Of a stretch of 64,000 nucleotides of DNA, positions 6,426 through 61,554 are shown piece after piece. The notes under the pieces were generated by a model. That model saw only the letters and a program-made list of their open reading frames with translations. It was not told the DNA's origin and ran no database searches. The DNA lies in IMG/VR virus record IMGVR_UViG_3300009419_000010, positions 44,763-108,762 of that record. One strand, 5' to 3'. A program made the translations under genes and the position numbers. The DNA is from a virus. Numbering within the stretch: position 1 is the stretch's first letter; every line of letters begins with the position of its first letter.

Positions 6426-7216
6426 TGGCTGGATGTCCTACAATACCCTTATCGTGCTTAACACCTGAAAACATTTTCGCTGGTGTATATCGTCCTAATT
6501 GTGGTGGATTTGCTGATCCATCTAATTTCCAAGCAGAAAGAGCAATTTTCAATTCTCAATTTGGAGAACTTATCAATAACTACGGTGTAACGATTGGTTA
6601 CATGGTCAATACTTTTGAACCAGACCAAATGAACTCTATTTACGGAGAACACACCACGATGTATTGGTTGAGTGCAATGGAAATCAAAGCATATATTCAA
6701 ATGGAAAACGGTTCTCCGATTTATGCGTTGGCTGGTATGGATTCCCCTGACACTTTGACACTGTATTTACATATCGATGAATTTGAGACGAAATTCGGTT
6801 CTTTGAGTTATTTCCAAAATCATCCAGTAGAACCCAAATCACAGGATAAGATCATCGTGTATCCATTTGGTTGTGATAGACCTAATGGTAGAAGTGCTAA
6901 AATATTTGAAGTGACAGAGGCGATGGATGAGGATCAATCAGAACTCAATCCTGCAATGGGTCATTATGTGTGGAGACTTAAAGCTGTCCGTAGTGAACAC
7001 AATTTCACCACCAATGAGCCTAGAGAAGCATTCAATCAACAAATTGCTGATAATTCTTACTTTGGTAAAATATCATCAGTATTGTTTCCTGAATTGTCCA
7101 GTGCTTTGAGTGCCAATAAGATTTATACAGAAAATTCAGACGATATTGTGAGAAATGAGATATTCCCACCATCTACAGGAGGTAGTGATGGGAGTGTTTA
7201 TGGTAATTACTTTTAA
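6425..7216 (+). CDS. Neck protein, gp14-like (tentative)
   Basis: The product is 263 residues, near T4 gp14 (256). The middle shows the gp14 pattern: IYGEHTTMYW, an acidic helix with MEIKAYIQ, a DTLTLYLHIDEF strand, then PKSQDKIIVYPFG and KIFEVTEA, corresponding to the family's GD-IYFP and FEI-V elements. gp14 joins gp13 to complete the head before tail attachment. The terminase gene follows 2 nt later. The call is from pattern and position. Confidence 0.6.
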   Translation: MAGCPTIPLSCLTPENIFAGVYRPNCGGFADPSNFQAERAIFNSQFGELINNYGVTIGYMVNTFEPDQMNSIYGEHTTMYWLSAMEIKAYIQMENGSPIYALAGMDSPDTLTLYLHIDEFETKFGSLSYFQNHPVEPKSQDKIIVYPFGCDRPNGRSAKIFEVTEAMDEDQSELNPAMGHYVWRLKAVRSEHNFTTNEPREAFNQQIADNSYFGKISSVLFPELSSALSANKIYTENSDDIVRNEIFPPSTGGSDGSVYGNYF

Positions 7217-7218
7217 TC

Positions 7219-8991
7219 ATGGCAGCTAAAAGAAAAAAACAGGAGTATATGGGTAATCCCAATCTCCCAACTGCTGATGCGGTATTTGAATACACACCAG
7301 AAATGGTGATGGAGATGGAGAAGTGTAAAGGTTCTCTATTATATTTTGCATCTAATTATTTCTATATTATCGATCCCGATGAGGGTAAGAAAGTCATCCC
7401 TCTTTTTGATTATCAACAGAGATTATTGAAATCTTTCGATGAACATCGATTCAATATTGTGTTATCAAGCCGTCAATCGGGGAAAACGACTGTAGCAACA
7501 GCATTAGCATTGCATGAAGCTTGTTTCAAAGATCATAAAAACATTGTTATTGTTGCTAACAAAGAAGAAACAGCAAAAAACATCTTCAAACGTGTTCGAC
7601 TTGCATATTTGGAGCTACCAAATTGGTTGAAGCCAGGTATTAAAAAATGGGGTGATACTGGTTTGGAATTGGCTAATGGTAGCACTATTGAAATTTCGAC
7701 CACGACTGGTAATGCTGCACGGGGTAAAACAATTAACTTGTTGCTATTGGATGAGTTGGCGTTCATTGAACCCGAAAGTATTGTTGAGGACTTCTGGAGA
7801 TCCGTTTACCCAACTATTTCTCGTGCTAAAACCTCAAGAATTTTGATCACATCGACTCCGAATGGGGTAGGTAACTTGTTCCATCGGTTATATATTGGTG
7901 CAACGAAGAAAGAGAATCGTTTTCATTATGAAAGAATTGATTGGTGGGAAGTTCCTGGTCGTGATAATGAATGGAAACAAGAACAGATCAAGGATTTGGG
8001 TTCTTATGAGTCATTTGCTCAAGAATATGGTAACGAGTTTAATGATAATTCTCAAACATCGATTGACGAGGAGTTGTTCGACAAATTAAAACAAGAATGT
8101 AAAGAACCATTACATATTCTCAAGGATGGTGCATATAAAATATGGGAAGAATACGACCAAGAAAAAATATATGCTATTGGAGGTGACGTTTCTGAAGGTG
8201 TTGGTCTAGATTCATCTGTTTTGGAGATATTCGACATAACTAATCCCAAAGAAATTGTTCAAGTCGGAGAATATGTTAATAATAAGATAGGTCCATCTGA
8301 ATTCACTAATGTCATTGCTGAAATTTGTGGTCATTGGGGTAATCCATTGTTATTAATTGAGCGAAACAACCAAGGAACAGGTGTTTGTGATCGTTTGGCA
8401 AATGAATTCATGTATCAAAATTTGGTATCATGGGGTGCTAAAGAAGCACACAAAAACAAGCAGAATGGTATGATATCCCACATCAACACCAAATATAAAG
8501 CTGTTTTAAACATGCGTTATTTTGTAAATGAATCGAAATCTGTCACATTCCGTTCCATTGATAGCTTGAAAGAATTTAAAACGTTTGTGAGATATCCAAA
8601 TGGATCTTGGAAAGCAAAAGGAGGGGAGCATGACGATAGAGTTATGGCTACTGTATGGATGCTGATGTCATTATACAATGACATTGCGGAATTGTATTTT
8701 GAAATTGAGGAATTGGATGATTGCGACAGACCATTGGTGATCAAACCAATTGATCAAGGACTATTCAAATACAAATCAGCAACATCTATTTACACCAACG
8801 AAGAAGTTGCTAAAATTGAACATTCCAACTTAGCACCAATGCTTTTTGGTGGGGAAGGTTCCATGGCAGCTAGTGACATGGCAGATTTAGAAGCACAGGG
8901 ATGGTTCTTACCTCAAGGTTCCATCAATTCCAATCCTGATAGGAATATTTCTTATGAACAATGGGATGCTATGAATAAGTATTTTGGTTGA
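7219..8991 (+). CDS. Terminase large subunit, gp17-like
   Basis: The 590-residue packaging motor has a complete ATPase: Walker A SSRQSGKTT (about 83-91), Walker B LLLLDELAFI (about 174-183) and coupling motif TSTPNG. The C-terminal RNase H-like nuclease has its acidic residues in GGDVSEG (about 320), LLIERNNQG and GEHDDRVMA (about 470). Length and order match T4 gp17 (610 aa). It cleaves concatemeric DNA and drives it into the prohead. The last 70 residues after the nuclease are less conserved. It starts 2 nt after the neck-like gene. Confidence 0.97.
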   Translation: MAAKRKKQEYMGNPNLPTADAVFEYTPEMVMEMEKCKGSLLYFASNYFYIIDPDEGKKVIPLFDYQQRLLKSFDEHRFNIVLSSRQSGKTTVATALALHEACFKDHKNIVIVANKEETAKNIFKRVRLAYLELPNWLKPGIKKWGDTGLELANGSTIEISTTTGNAARGKTINLLLLDELAFIEPESIVEDFWRSVYPTISRAKTSRILITSTPNGVGNLFHRLYIGATKKENRFHYERIDWWEVPGRDNEWKQEQIKDLGSYESFAQEYGNEFNDNSQTSIDEELFDKLKQECKEPLHILKDGAYKIWEEYDQEKIYAIGGDVSEGVGLDSSVLEIFDITNPKEIVQVGEYVNNKIGPSEFTNVIAEICGHWGNPLLLIERNNQGTGVCDRLANEFMYQNLVSWGAKEAHKNKQNGMISHINTKYKAVLNMRYFVNESKSVTFRSIDSLKEFKTFVRYPNGSWKAKGGEHDDRVMATVWMLMSLYNDIAELYFEIEELDDCDRPLVIKPIDQGLFKYKSATSIYTNEEVAKIEHSNLAPMLFGGEGSMAASDMADLEAQGWFLPQGSINSNPDRNISYEQWDAMNKYFG

Positions 8992-39859: not shown

Positions 39860-39876
39860 AAAAACTAGAATACAAT
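39860..39876 (+). promoter_or_regulatory. AAAAACTAG-type promoter with leader
   Basis: AAAAACTAGAA then TACAAT. The next ATG is 59 nt downstream (39936), giving a leader of about 53 nt that contains a small CGCTT-AAGCG hairpin. Confidence 0.7.
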
Positions 39877-39935: not shown

Positions 39936-40163
39936 ATGTCCTTCGAACAAGACAAAACAATTTACACAGCAAGACACACTCGTCTTATTGAAGCTCTGCA
40001 CAATTTGTCACACTGGTGTGCCAAGAGAGCAGAAGGAGAGTATGATGACTATACGACAATGACAATGCTTTTGAAAAAGGTAAATGAATTACCACATCAA
40101 ATAAACAAAGCAGGATGGATGGCATTAGACGAATTTAACAAACAAAATAATGAAACTCATTAA
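39936..40163 (+). CDS. Hypothetical protein
   Basis: 75 residues (MSFEQDKTIYTARHTRLIEA). The ATG at 39936 is chosen because the frame further upstream runs through a promoter and would need a TTG start. It overlaps the next gene. Confidence 0.6.
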   Translation: MSFEQDKTIYTARHTRLIEALHNLSHWCAKRAEGEYDDYTTMTMLLKKVNELPHQINKAGWMALDEFNKQNNETH

Positions 40164-40362
40164 AGCAGGAAACAAACACACGGGAATCTGGCGTGGAACA
40201 TGCCGAAATTGCGACTCAGAGTTTGAAGATACAGATGAAAATGTGAGACTTGGAAAAGTTGAAAGCTGTATTCGTGAACGCGATGAATTTGCGCATCGAG
40301 ATTGCTCAGAGTGTGGACGTAAAGCGGGATGGGCAGTTATTCTTTATCCCGTTGAATTTTAA
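40150..40362 (+). CDS. Small zinc-ribbon-like protein
   Basis: 70 residues. CRNC and CSEC pairs separated by about 34 residues (with an extra Cys in VESCIRE) suggest one zinc site. Related small proteins are frequent in phages. Confidence 0.75.
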   Translation: MKLIKAGNKHTGIWRGTCRNCDSEFEDTDENVRLGKVESCIRERDEFAHRDCSECGRKAGWAVILYPVEF

Positions 40363-40369
40363 TAAAAAC

Positions 40370-40471
40370 AAGTGTGTGGTGTAGTGGTAGCACAACCCAA
40401 GCAAAGGGCTTCTTTTCCGATAGGATATGTGGCATTTCATAGAGGCGCAGGTTCGATTCCTGACACACTTA
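40370..40471 (+). ncRNA. tRNA-like RNA with abnormal anticodon region
   Basis: Acceptor arms AAGTGTG and CACACTT pair perfectly. A D-arm (GTG, loop TAGTGGTAG, CAC) and a T-arm (CAGG, loop TTCGATT, CCTG) are in place. Between D and T arms lie about 53 nt rather than the usual 23 or so. The best anticodon-like hairpin has stem CCC/GGG and loop AAGCAAA, with A where U33 is required. An unusual tRNA, a decayed one or a tRNA mimic are all possible. It is followed by eight T. Confidence 0.6.
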
Positions 40472-40896
40472 CAATTTTTTTTCTTGACAAAAACCAATAA
40501 CGTGGTTTAATGATCACGCACAACAATTAAAAACGCTGACAGACCGTTTAGTCTGTCACCACATTCCAGCCTCCGCAATGAGGGCATTCAATAGAGCATA
40601 CGGTTTCAGGCATGAAGCACGACATCTGAATGAGCGACCTGATCGGGGGTTGGAGTGTGGTAACACAAAACAAACGAAGCAGCGGCGTGGAATTTCTTAG
40701 ACACGCAGTTCATACGCTTTTCAAAGAATTGAATCAGTTTACTGAGCTACAGGGGAGGTTTGCAACTCACCGCTCAGTGCATCTAGTAGGAGGCACTCCC
40801 GAATGTCAATTAAAGAAAAGTAGCAATGAGCCTGATCAGCTTAGAGTGGAGTAAGACCCACCTGCTTCACCATTTTTAAACAATTAAAATAACAAT
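40472..40896 (+). ncRNA. Long non-coding stretch with RNA-like structure
   Basis: No convincing gene. TTGACA (40484) and TTTAAT (40506), spaced by 16, form a promoter. Downstream are a perfect 8-bp hairpin (TGACAGAC/GTCTGTCA, 40537-40558), a 7-bp ACTGAGC/GCTCAGT pairing (about 40740-40780), and at 40675 GAAGCAG able to pair with CTGCTTC just before ACCA at 40871, followed by TTTTT. The 3' end looks tRNA-like but lacks a T-loop, and no tmRNA tag is readable. Confidence 0.5.
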
Positions 40897-44396: not shown

Positions 44397-45488
44397 ATGA
44401 AACTACCAAACAAAGAAGAATTTAATTTCAAAGATTGCGTCATCGCTGGTGACGAATGTTGGCTTATTACGCCGAAAGATATGAGCGTCAAATGGAACGA
44501 CGAAAATACTCGTTTCCGTTCTTGTATTGTGCGTAAGTCTGACAATTTCGTAATTAGCCAAGGATTCCGAAAATTTACAAATTTCGGAGAGCAACCAGCA
44601 TTTGAACCATGGAAAGATTGTTGGAAATTTGAAGCGAGACACAAGTTGGATGGAAGCCTTTTGATCGTTTCTCGATACAAAGGTCAGTGGATTATCAGAA
44701 CCCGTGGCACTGTAGATGCTCGCCAACTTCCTAATGGTCATGAGATTGACCTGTTAATTGAAAAATATAAAAAATTTTTTGAAGATAGTGATGCTATTGA
44801 TAGCATATCAGCATTAGAGCAATCTTGGTTATTTGAATGGACTACTCCGTCCAATATTATTGTATTGAAAGAGTCCGATGAGTATGAATTAACTTTAATC
44901 GGTATTGTTTCCAATGAGGATGCAGCATACTATAGTCAGGCATATGTAGATATATGTGCGATTCAATACGATTTTAAACGTCCAGAGATGTATCATTATA
45001 ATTCTGTTTCAGAGTGCATTGCTGATGTTACTGCTTGGAAAGGTAAAGAGGGCGTTGTCATTTACTCTCCCAATGGTCAAACTCTCAAGAAAATCAAAGC
45101 AAGTGAATACTGTGAACTTCATAAAATTGCTACTGGAATTAAAAATGTAAAAAATGTTCTGGATGTATTTATGGAATCTCCGAAATTTACTAAATGTGAA
45201 GATTTCTATAGCCATATTGAAAAGTTACTCGACTTTGAGATCGCGGAAAAATGCAAACCATTTATCCAAGAAATCACTGATGCCTATGCTAAGTTCGTAA
45301 AGGGTGTGGACAATATGAATGAGCGTATTCCTTTTATTCAGAATTACGAAACTCGCAAAGAACAAGCAATGGCGATTCAACAAGAGTTCCGTGATTGGAA
45401 GACTGCTATTGCATTTCTTCTACTTGACAATCGTAAGGTTGATGATAAAGTTGTGCGCAAGGCAATGGAGAAAATCTTAGAATTATAA
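44397..45488 (+). CDS. RNA ligase, T4 Rnl1-like
   Basis: The product is 363 residues; T4 Rnl1 has 374. FRKFTNFGEQPAFEPW leads to EARHKLDGSLLIVSRYKG (about 78-95), where Lys of KxDGS is the adenylation site (motif I). RTRGT, WLFEWTTPSNIIV (motif IIIa region), EGVVIYSP (IV) and LKKIKASEY (V) follow. Rnl1 seals tRNA broken in the anticodon loop during host defence. The companion kinase-like protein lies at 32984. Confidence 0.92.
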   Translation: MKLPNKEEFNFKDCVIAGDECWLITPKDMSVKWNDENTRFRSCIVRKSDNFVISQGFRKFTNFGEQPAFEPWKDCWKFEARHKLDGSLLIVSRYKGQWIIRTRGTVDARQLPNGHEIDLLIEKYKKFFEDSDAIDSISALEQSWLFEWTTPSNIIVLKESDEYELTLIGIVSNEDAAYYSQAYVDICAIQYDFKRPEMYHYNSVSECIADVTAWKGKEGVVIYSPNGQTLKKIKASEYCELHKIATGIKNVKNVLDVFMESPKFTKCEDFYSHIEKLLDFEIAEKCKPFIQEITDAYAKFVKGVDNMNERIPFIQNYETRKEQAMAIQQEFRDWKTAIAFLLLDNRKVDDKVVRKAMEKILEL

Positions 45489-57526: not shown

Positions 57527-57724
57527 ATGGTAACAAAATTAGAAAAACAATACGATGCGGGAGAAAATCTATCTTCCATTCAAAAGATTGATGAAAAGCT
57601 TTCTATTCTTCGTGAATCTTGGCAAGATGCTAGTGAGGATAAAAAAAATAAATGGATGAAAATGATTAACGAACAACTCGATCAACGCTTGACATTGATG
57701 AGTATTCGTGATAACATGGGGTGA
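57527..57724 (+). CDS. Small helical protein
   Basis: 65 residues, charged helix (SILRESWQDASEDKKNKWMK). Its last codons and stop lie inside the tRNA-Ser gene (7-nt overlap). No family recognised. Confidence 0.65.
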   Translation: MVTKLEKQYDAGENLSSIQKIDEKLSILRESWQDASEDKKNKWMKMINEQLDQRLTLMSIRDNMG

Positions 57725-57807
57725 TGGCAGAGTGGTAATGCACCCGACTTGAAATCGGAGGTCAACCCTGACAGGTTGCGAGGATTCAATTTCTTCTCAC
57801 CCCGCCA
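57718..57807 (+). tRNA. tRNA-Ser (anticodon TGA)
   Basis: Acceptor GGGGTGA/TCACCCC, D-arm GCAGAGTGGTAATGC, anticodon stem CCGA/TCGG with loop CTTGAAA (anticodon TGA), long class II variable arm, and T-arm GAGGA-TTCAATT-TCTTC. Discriminator G at 57804; the CCA tail is encoded. All canonical features are present. Confidence 0.95.
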
Positions 57808-57809
57808 AT

Positions 57810-57883
57810 TGCGTGATGCCAGAGCGGTCTAATGGGGGAGATTGCAAATCTCTTGTTCGTCGGTTCAAATCCGACTCACGCAT
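57810..57883 (+). tRNA. tRNA-Cys (anticodon GCA)
   Basis: Acceptor TGCGTGA/TCACGCA, D-arm CCA/TGG, anticodon stem GGAGA/TCTCT with loop TTGCAAA (anticodon GCA), T-arm GTCGG-TTCAAAT-CCGAC, and discriminator T as expected for Cys. CCA is not encoded. Located 3 nt after tRNA-Ser. Confidence 0.95.
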
Positions 57884-57924: not shown

Positions 57925-58095
57925 ATGGCTAATCACAATACTAAATCGGCTCGCAAAGCGGGATTCGCAAGCAAGAAAGATCAAAACAACAATGGCACTC
58001 GTATTTTTGAGGGCAAAGCTTGTGACACTCGATGGGATGCCCCTGAGAGCAAACACAGAAGCCGCAAAGGTAATCAACGTAACCATTCCAATTAA
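57925..58095 (+). CDS. Small basic protein
   Basis: 56 residues, Lys/Arg/Asn/His-rich (MANHNTKSARKAGFASKKDQ and SKHRSRKGNQRNHSN). Own promoter. Charge suggests nucleic-acid binding, ribosome or host-factor contact; unknown. Confidence 0.68.
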   Translation: MANHNTKSARKAGFASKKDQNNNGTRIFEGKACDTRWDAPESKHRSRKGNQRNHSN

Positions 58096-58101
58096 CGATT
58101 T

Positions 58102-58285
58102 TTCGCTTCGGCAGTATCAATACATGACCAGAACCTCCCTCTACTATTCACTTAGCATGGAGACTGGTGGGATCGAGAAATAGAGCCTTCGGGTGCGCGG
58201 AAAAAGTCAGTAATGACAGGTAGTAATTCTATCCTCCCTAAAACTCGGATACTGAAAAGGTAGGCGCAGACCGTTCCGAAGCGAA
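58102..58285 (+). ncRNA. Structured RNA with two competing pairings
   Basis: TTCGCTTCGG (58102-58111) and CCGAAGCGAA (58276-58285) form a perfect 10-bp closing stem. A second CTTCGG (58187-58192), followed by TGCGC, can instead pair with GCGCA (58264) and CCGAAG (58276-58281). The exclusive options resemble a riboswitch or attenuator upstream of the gene at 58353. No known RNA family was recognised. Confidence 0.5.
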
Positions 58286-58340
58286 TTAATTTTAATCAAT
58301 AAATTATGAATATCACAGCATTCATTTGGGTAGAGTAATA

Positions 58341-61086: not shown

Positions 61087-61198
61087 GAAGCAGCGGTGTG
61101 GATGGAGACACATAGACCTCGACCCCAGAGATGGATGATGGTCGCCTTACCCCAAAGTCAAAGGATAGGCGTAGTTGGTTCGAATCCAACTTGCTTCA
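61087..61198 (+). ncRNA. tRNA-like RNA with enlarged centre
   Basis: Acceptor GAAGCAG pairs with TTGCTTC (one G-U), D-arm GTGT/ACAC with loop GGATGGAG, and T-arm GTTGG-TTCGAAT-CCAAC. The space between D and T arms is 62 nt, far more than a class II tRNA. Possible inner hairpins include CGACC/GGTCG and GCCT/AGGC. No convincing anticodon loop with U33. TTTTT follows. Confidence 0.58.
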
Positions 61199-61217: not shown

Positions 61218-61289
61218 GGCTATGGAGAAGCATTTGGTGACTTCCTACCCCAACAGGGTGAGTAGTGGGTTCGAAACCCATCATAGCAG
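61218..61289 (+). ncRNA. tRNA-like RNA of normal length, odd anticodon loop
   Basis: GGCTATG/CATAGCA (first pair G-A mismatched), D-arm GAAG/CTTC with loop CATTTGGTGA, T-arm GTGGG-TTCGAAA-CCCAT. The 72-nt length is normal, but the anticodon arm is weak and its loop reads CCAACAG, with C at position 33. Either a decayed tRNA or a tRNA mimic. 20 nt after the previous tRNA-like RNA. Confidence 0.55.
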
Positions 61290-61554
61290 CGAGGACGCTC
61301 GCAACTTCATCATTTTCAATGTTCTGCGGCTGAAAATTAGTCTAAATCCCTCTGAATGTTGCTCTTACTATCAACCAAGGAGTTAGTCAATTCACAATGC
61401 CGATCATGACAGGACACCTTTTTAATAAATAACTTTGGTTGGGATATATGCGTGGTTCGTCGTATATCATAAAAAACCATCCATGTGGATTCCAAATCCA
61501 ACAGAAAGTCAACGAACCGCCAATTTCATTAAAAAACTAGATTACTATTGTGAC
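61290..61554 (+). other. Non-coding stretch with hairpins
   Basis: No supported gene. Seen: GCGAG/CTCGC hairpin (about 61289-61302), ATTTTCA/TGAAAAT around 61311-61336, and GATATATG/CGTATATC around 61445-61470. It may hold RNA processed with the tRNA-like genes. The next promoter is at 61532. Confidence 0.4.
61532..61548 (+). promoter_or_regulatory. AAAAACTAG-type promoter
   Basis: AAAAACTAGAT then TACTAT, 6 nt, ATG at 61555. Confidence 0.75.

Follow-up and report, generated by a model that had tools for sequence, protein, structure and literature searches.

A tRNA-like RNA without an anticodon arm

The window analyzed here is a stretch of 64,000 nucleotides, which comprises bases 44763-108762 of a 108,762-base IMG/VR virus record (the whole record is termed G000). 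At the locus under study, a gene for a 70-amino-acid protein is followed after 7 nt by a tRNA-like element and then by a run of eight T, a conserved promoter-like block, a predicted hairpin RNA and a larger tRNA-shaped RNA. Their positions and those of the other tRNA-type RNAs of the window are listed in Table 1. In sequence comparisons with named phages, we found no close relative of the window or of the locus. An RNA ligase gene at 44397-45488, whose best named matches had 27% identity, was used as a query to fetch eleven closer virus loci.

Table 1. Positions of the features at the locus and of the tRNA-type RNAs in the window
Feature	Position	Strand	Remarks
Recurrent promoter-like block AAAAACTAGAATACAAT	39860-39876	+	With up to 2 mismatches, 20 copies in the window versus 0.09 expected
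70-aa gene	40150-40362	+	Directly upstream of the tRNA-like RNA; orthologs in L007, L008 and L009 (84, 84 and 78% identity)
tRNA-like RNA without anticodon arm	40370-40471	+	Acceptor 40370-40376/40464-40470; D arm 40379-40393; T arm 40447-40463; A73 at 40471
53-nt replacement centre	40394-40446	+	Replaces the anticodon and variable arms; includes CCC-AAGCAAA-GGG
T8 run, possible 3′ end	40475-40482	+	Directly behind the tRNA-like RNA; read from the sequence
Promoter-like block, TTGACA...	40484-40515	+	Conserved; unique in the window; 84% identity in L009
Long hairpin RNA (predicted)	40532-40664	+	Fold z = -7.19; stem sequence CCACATTCCAGCCTCCGCAATGAGG
Class A-like tRNA-shaped RNA	40676-40868	+	Acceptor GAAGCAG/CTGCTTC (7/7 pairs); D arm CGGCGTG..CACGC; 8-nt T-like loop AGTAAGAC; then ACC
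Canonical tRNA-Ser(TGA), control	57718-57804	+	ARAGORN and Rfam; passes the anticodon-arm test
Canonical tRNA-Cys(GCA), control	57810-57883	+	ARAGORN and Rfam; passes the anticodon-arm test
Second anticodon-less tRNA-like RNA	61087-61198	+	Class A D arm; canonical T arm GTTGG-TTCGAAT-CCAAC; descriptor match
tRNA-like RNA, ARAGORN Val(AAC)	61218-61289	+	C at position 33; first acceptor pair broken

When the whole window was compared with 4227 Rfam families using cmscan, the tRNA family (RF00005) matched at exactly 40370-40471 on the plus strand, at 36.0 bits, which exceeds the gathering score of 29 (E = 7.2e-4 at this scope). This score was reached despite the missing anticodon arm. An earlier note on this DNA had proposed a tRNA-like RNA here and suggested a covariance search; its coordinates were exact, and the tRNA model matches over the gathering score. 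ARAGORN made no call at 40370-40471 and thus assigned no isotype.

The acceptor (AAGTGTG/CACACTT) forms seven of seven pairs and the D arm (GTGT-AGTGGTA-GCAC) four of four, including one G-U. The T arm (GCAGG-TTCGATT-CCTGA) forms four of five. The word perfect used in the note is thus true of the acceptor and not of the T stem, because the outermost pair of the latter is G.A. Thus, the element has the 7-bp acceptor, the D arm and, with this one mismatch, the T arm with consensus bases of a canonical tRNA. All 13 consensus positions that we checked are tRNA-like (U8, A14, R15, G18, G19, A21, G53, U54, U55, C56, R57, A58 and C61, in tRNA numbering). The discriminator A is followed by CAA and then by the T run; CCA is not encoded. 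Unconstrained folding of the element gave z = -0.86, which is no better than shuffles, and did not form the D arm.

We also searched with a strict descriptor, which demanded an acceptor, a D arm with a GG loop and a T arm, the acceptor and the T stem being separated by 44 nt or more. It matched twice in the whole 108,762-base record, at 40370 and 61087, and nowhere on the other strand. The same descriptor had no match on either strand of 60 first-order Markov random genomes.

The 53-nt centre and its loop AAGCAAA with A at position 33 were both found as previously described. A search for arms with a 5-bp stem and a 7-nt loop in the middle of the element revealed four weak ones. The best of them at the right place, AACCC-AAGCAAA-GGGCT, has four pairs and A at position 33. 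The sole arm with U33 and at least four pairs is weak (three Watson-Crick pairs and one G-U) and was equalled in 37.5% of shuffled centres. A canonical 5-bp anticodon stem with a 7-nt loop and U33 was not found in the element, while the two control tRNAs pass the same test. We also considered a tRNA gene with an intron and rejected it: the anticodon stem halves at the ends of the insert give at most two pairs, and there is no solution with U33. As both ends of the centre fail to pair, an intron cannot rescue the element as a tRNA. The centre had no antisense match beyond chance in the phage genome. No relatives of it were found when the segment 40360-40895 was compared with 15 related records, in which the promoter block was the sole strong match.

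Transcription context and other tRNA-type RNAs of the genome

The block resembling AAAAACTAGAATACAAT lies at 20 plus-strand sites in the window, for example at 39860, 50838 and 57887. It is probably the phage's own type of promoter. The transcription unit of the element would probably start at the 39860 block, run through the 70-aa gene, a relative of which is present in four virus loci, and end in the T run. A consensus scan gave no terminator call for the T run at 40475-40482, and the block at 40484-40515 is absent from the list of a sigma-70 consensus scan.

Two canonical tRNAs, Ser(TGA) at 57718 and Cys(GCA) at 57810, were correctly reported before. Beyond these, the same genome has two more odd tRNA-like RNAs, at 61087 and 61218, and the larger tRNA-shaped RNA at 40676-40868. 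The element at 61087-61198 scored 25.6 bits with R1, a covariance model of the class of RNAs described below (class A); the E-value was 6.8e-6 for a search of 801 bases and 0.0074 for one of 873,609 bases. By this test it belongs to class A, most members of which lack its canonical T loop UUCGAAU. With a class A D arm and a canonical T loop, it links the two designs. The RNA at 61218-61289 is below the Rfam gathering score. It has a near-identical copy in the virus locus L029 (8126-8197, minus strand), where its order relative to the 61087 element is reversed. Two segments, 58090-58310 and 61290-61530, were apparently gene-free on reading and may contain structured RNA.

The same site in relatives and tRNA-ended RNAs of other phages

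In the related locus L009, the left flank of the element is 85% identical to the window and the right flank, with the promoter-like block, 84%; the element between them could not be aligned. Its site is occupied in L009 (1068-1173) by another RNA, with an acceptor of seven of seven pairs (one G-U) and a T stem of five of five, both of different sequence, around an unrelated centre. The element is absent from the corresponding site in L007 and L008, and reading the L007 sequence also revealed no such RNA. The centre of the L009 RNA shares ACCCYAAAGTCAAAGGAT with 61087-61198 of the window, and the same sequence occurs in near-identical copies of the 61087 element in L029 and L033. The motif ACCCNAAAGTCAAAGGAT was not accompanied by a tRNA-like RNA in seven of the ten contigs carrying it.

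Another design lies behind tRNA-Met in L016 and L018, in which the acceptor and T arm are the same and a hairpin has been gained or lost in the centre. In L005, an otherwise distant phage with 26 tRNA matches in its record, two adjacent oversized tRNA-like RNAs directly follow tRNA-Val (7077-7304, minus strand), with Rfam tRNA scores of 40.4 and 44.9 bits. Two of the three contigs from our first pattern scan, L004 and L006, were dropped since they had ordinary tRNA arrangements at the matched place. Among these RNAs the ends are retained and the centres vary, a pattern that drift would not produce.

A set of tRNA-shaped phage RNAs

For the DNA behind the element (40475-40890), the predicted fold is much more stable than those of shuffles (z = -5.74). 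The longest of its forward reading frames, with 74 codons (40630-40854), was taken for chance. The stem sequence of the hairpin recurs in L120 (about 8062-8175, minus strand), where it is again followed by the same kind of tRNA-shaped RNA. In the window, this RNA (40676-40868) lies about 205 bases behind the element at 40370. Its unaided minimum free energy fold forms the acceptor, the D-like arm, the centre and the T-like arm. Its 5′ core is identical to that of a set of RNAs, here called class A, which we found in the window, in loci L111-L123 and in loci L140-L222. Class A RNAs have an acceptor, a D arm CGGCGUG..CACGC, a variable centre and a T arm, with the core CGGCGTGGAAAGCAGACACGC and the T-like loop AGTAGCGN. 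We defined membership by CG, a D arm GYGUG..CACRC and covarying acceptor and T arms, as captured in model R1. With R1, the 5′ half alone of 40676-40868 was aligned (14.9 bits, E = 2.3 in 873,609 bases), and its T-like stem has four pairs.

A pattern of the core with its flanks matched 15 virus contigs, and the architecture was present on reading in all of them except L115. A script placed the 3′ end in each of those 14 contigs, wrongly in L112. The core alone matched at least 120 stretches, from which 80 loci were taken. Among 103 core sites examined in these loci and three named phages, 94 had a 3′ partner and nine did not; 40676 is one of the nine under this stricter script, yet it had been paired in an earlier pass. 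In total, we obtained 93 distinct class A RNAs of 97-302 nt. Their T loops are mostly AGTAGCGN, and five have TGCAATT. One member (L119, 7014-7179, minus strand) has a tRNA-like insert in its centre, which ARAGORN reported as tRNA-??? with a two-base anticodon.

The acceptor strands of these RNAs covary. In 89 RNAs with a recognized T loop, 617 of 623 cells paired, compared with 338 ± 11 when the 3′ strands were re-dealt. The proportion was similar among 79 less related RNAs (547 of 553 cells). Since pairing had guided the choice of the 3′ strand, we repeated the test blindly and took the first T arm that was recognized from loop and stem only. Among 73 RNAs, 65 then had seven of seven pairs, five had six and three had five; after re-dealing, 2.5 had seven of seven. 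We also aligned 32 of the 93 RNAs, selected largely because they are short; of 544 cells in this alignment, 99.6% pair, with a covariation score of 0.604 versus 0.153.

In a comparison of 13 class A loci with Rfam 15, no family exceeded its gathering score except tRNA elsewhere in the loci. Ten further loci, compared at E up to 5, gave no match of meaningful score lying on the class A RNAs. We therefore rejected C4 or another Rfam family as their identity, as no match was found in the examples scanned. Our literature search found no description of these RNAs. The architecture was checked in three named carriers, the Pseudomonas phages Persinger, PotUPM1 and Orimi01, and the core alone matched in Orisa01-03 and in Ochrobactrum phage POI1126. 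The class A query had no match in E. coli genomes. Its matches in plasmids were dismissed, being a CoA-transferase gene, and so were 11 matches of a narrow CAG-flanked pattern in genome contigs, which looked coding and scored at most 18.5 bits with R1.

We considered whether the RNAs act as antisense RNAs on the phage's own genes and rejected this. Of 90 elements, just two had a complement that was reached by at most one of 30 shuffles, and one of these is simply a repeated copy in L114. We also rejected a fixed partner gene in the genome: in a scan of 30 of the 88 listed neighbours, all kinds were found, including terminase, portal, helicase, methyltransferase, thymidylate synthase, HNH and homing endonucleases and integrase, and many were without a family. 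Behind the class A RNA of L113, downstream of 1947 on the minus strand, the sequence is similar to a short segment of phage P1 and its relatives (80-84%).

The element at 40370 lies outside class A, because R1 gave it 1.6 bits and aligned its acceptor only. It represents a separate tRNA-derived design. As R1 does not recognize it, the class A evidence bears on this element by analogy only.

Comparison with known systems

The closest known case is rnaC (species 1) of phage T4, in likeness of architecture; homology is not implied. It has the acceptor CGGAACG/CGTTTCG and the T arm CCGGG-TTCGAAT-CCCGG around a 60-nt centre without a cloverleaf. A 7-bp acceptor and a T arm, of 5 bp in T4, thus enclose a long non-cloverleaf centre in both RNAs, and on this definition the element at 40370 is rnaC-like. 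In contrast to it, the annotated T4 RNA has a 46-nt 5′ leader and sits in a tRNA cluster. We did not see a canonical D arm in rnaC, and R1 did not match it. The T4 annotation calls rnaC a small stable RNA; RNAC and RNAD appear in PMC9697503 as late RNAs of unknown function, detected on northern blots. The element at 40370 is therefore a variant of a known but unexplained kind, the phage tRNA-like stable RNA.

The tRNA-like domain of tmRNA has an acceptor and a T arm, no anticodon and a long insert. These features resemble those at 40370; neither ARAGORN nor Rfam called a tmRNA in the window. YrlA, a bacterial Y RNA (RF02553), is a tRNA mimic that carries another domain in place of the anticodon part. 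PMC7790460 describes its tRNA-like domain and suggests that it may be a competitive inhibitor of an anticodon nuclease. We rejected membership of this family, since there was no match in G000 and none over the cut-off in 12 class A phage records; its partner, the Ro60/TROVE protein, was not found in the 108,762-base phage record either.

Small phage RNAs matured by RNase P include the CI RNA of P4 and the CA RNA of N15. The phage C4 antisense RNA is matured in the same way (PMC11143913, PMC5320573). C4 of P1 and P7 acts as antisense on a target mRNA, whereas the element at 40370 shows no antisense signal: it has no complementarity to phage mRNA beyond chance, and the C4 Rfam model had no match in the window. 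Phage tRNAs with altered anticodon loops are also relevant here; they are reported to evade nucleases (van den Berg 2023, cited in PMC12851939). Like the element at 40370, these phage tRNAs have their changes in the anticodon part. They are reportedly working tRNAs, whereas at 40370 the whole arm is gone.

A probable non-translating tRNA mimic and its alternatives

Given the observed anatomy, the missing anticodon arm, the replacement in L009 and the further tRNA-ended RNAs of the genome, we think it fairly probable that 40370-40471 encodes a non-translating tRNA mimic with an exchangeable centre, of the same kind as T4 rnaC. The host enzymes that make tRNA ends recognize the acceptor-T helix and the elbow, not the anticodon. 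With its acceptor, D arm, T arm and elbow bases, the element would keep the parts seen by RNase P, the 3′-end enzymes, the CCA-adding enzyme and elbow-binding proteins. We therefore propose that the RNA would be transcribed together with the upstream genes, released through cleavage by host RNase P, trimmed by 3′ exonucleases and given its CCA by the host, and that its tRNA-like ends would then protect it and keep it stable. The least certain step is that the actual work may be done by the centre, which would act in trans on a protein or an RNA of the infected host and use the tRNA body as a durable handle. By analogy, class A, in which the acceptor and T arm covary and the centre is variable, would support such a scaffold at 40370.

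The main alternative is a decaying tRNA gene that has been drifting since an insertion or rearrangement in its anticodon region. No orthologous copy of the centre was found, the element is absent from L007, one T-stem pair is mismatched and the fold is no better than shuffles, all of which speak for decay. However, the acceptor is complete and all checked elbow bases are retained, yet the entire centre has been replaced. This genome has a second such RNA, which two further phages also carry. L009 has an intact but different acceptor/T helix at the same place. Decay is therefore unlikely. The earlier note had listed decay as a possibility while stating that the element did not reflect general drift. 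The intact Ser and Cys tRNAs, the intact elbow and the L009 replacement bear out the latter statement and weaken the former. The note had also suggested a bait for anticodon nucleases, which is poorly supported and indeed implausible, because there is no anticodon arm to cut. The RNA may instead be a decoy for defences that sense tRNAs by their acceptor/T arm or CCA tail and not by the anticodon; the element retains exactly the parts that such nucleases grip. Such a defence has been published: PMC12851939 reports that Cas12a3 cuts CCA tails, contacts the acceptor and T arm and still cuts loop-deleted tRNAs, and that the means of viral resistance to it are yet unknown to its authors. It is this grip on the acceptor end, together with the lack of a viral answer known to them, that makes a decoy attractive, and the inhibitory role suggested for YrlA, also a tRNA mimic (PMC7790460), points the same way. 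CCA is not encoded in the element, however, and a simple decoy would not need elaborate variable centres, so we hold this explanation to be rather improbable.

The note had also named a processing guide. It would be a poor bet that the element is mere processing punctuation, in which the tRNA fold would recruit RNase P to separate the 70-aa gene from the downstream RNA on a polycistronic transcript. The location is suggestive, 7 nt behind a gene and just before a promoter-like block, with a T run between, and RNase P does cut phage RNAs that are not tRNAs, such as C4 (PMC11143913 and PMC5320573). Nevertheless, a 53-nt centre would be superfluous for this purpose, and the new promoter-like block would make a cut needless for the downstream RNA. 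It is scarcely credible that the element is a working but bizarre tRNA-Cys, read without U33. Although the arm AACCC-AAGCAAA-GGGCT places GCA at the anticodon position with four pairs, only three of these are consecutive, position 33 is A, about 30 extra nucleotides separate the arm from the T stem and the phage already has a normal tRNA-Cys(GCA).

Implications

Beyond the proposed non-translating mimic at 40370, a wider proposal may be put forward as a tentative one, which we would not expect to hold in full. Phages of many kinds might carry uncatalogued tRNA-shaped RNAs in which the anticodon domain has become exchangeable cargo. Class A and the smaller designs, including that at 40370, would then mimic tRNAs and occupy host proteins that handle or sense tRNAs during infection, including defences directed at the acceptor/T arm and CCA tail.

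Class A is a more important outcome of this study than the element at 40370 itself. Its members are numerous, strongly covarying and partly present in cultivated Pseudomonas phages, and annotation pipelines would miss them because the examples tested had no match in Rfam 15. Our results suggest that the tRNA body serves as a phage scaffold outside translation, at least twice in one genome, and the old question of the purpose of T4 RNA C becomes approachable by comparison.
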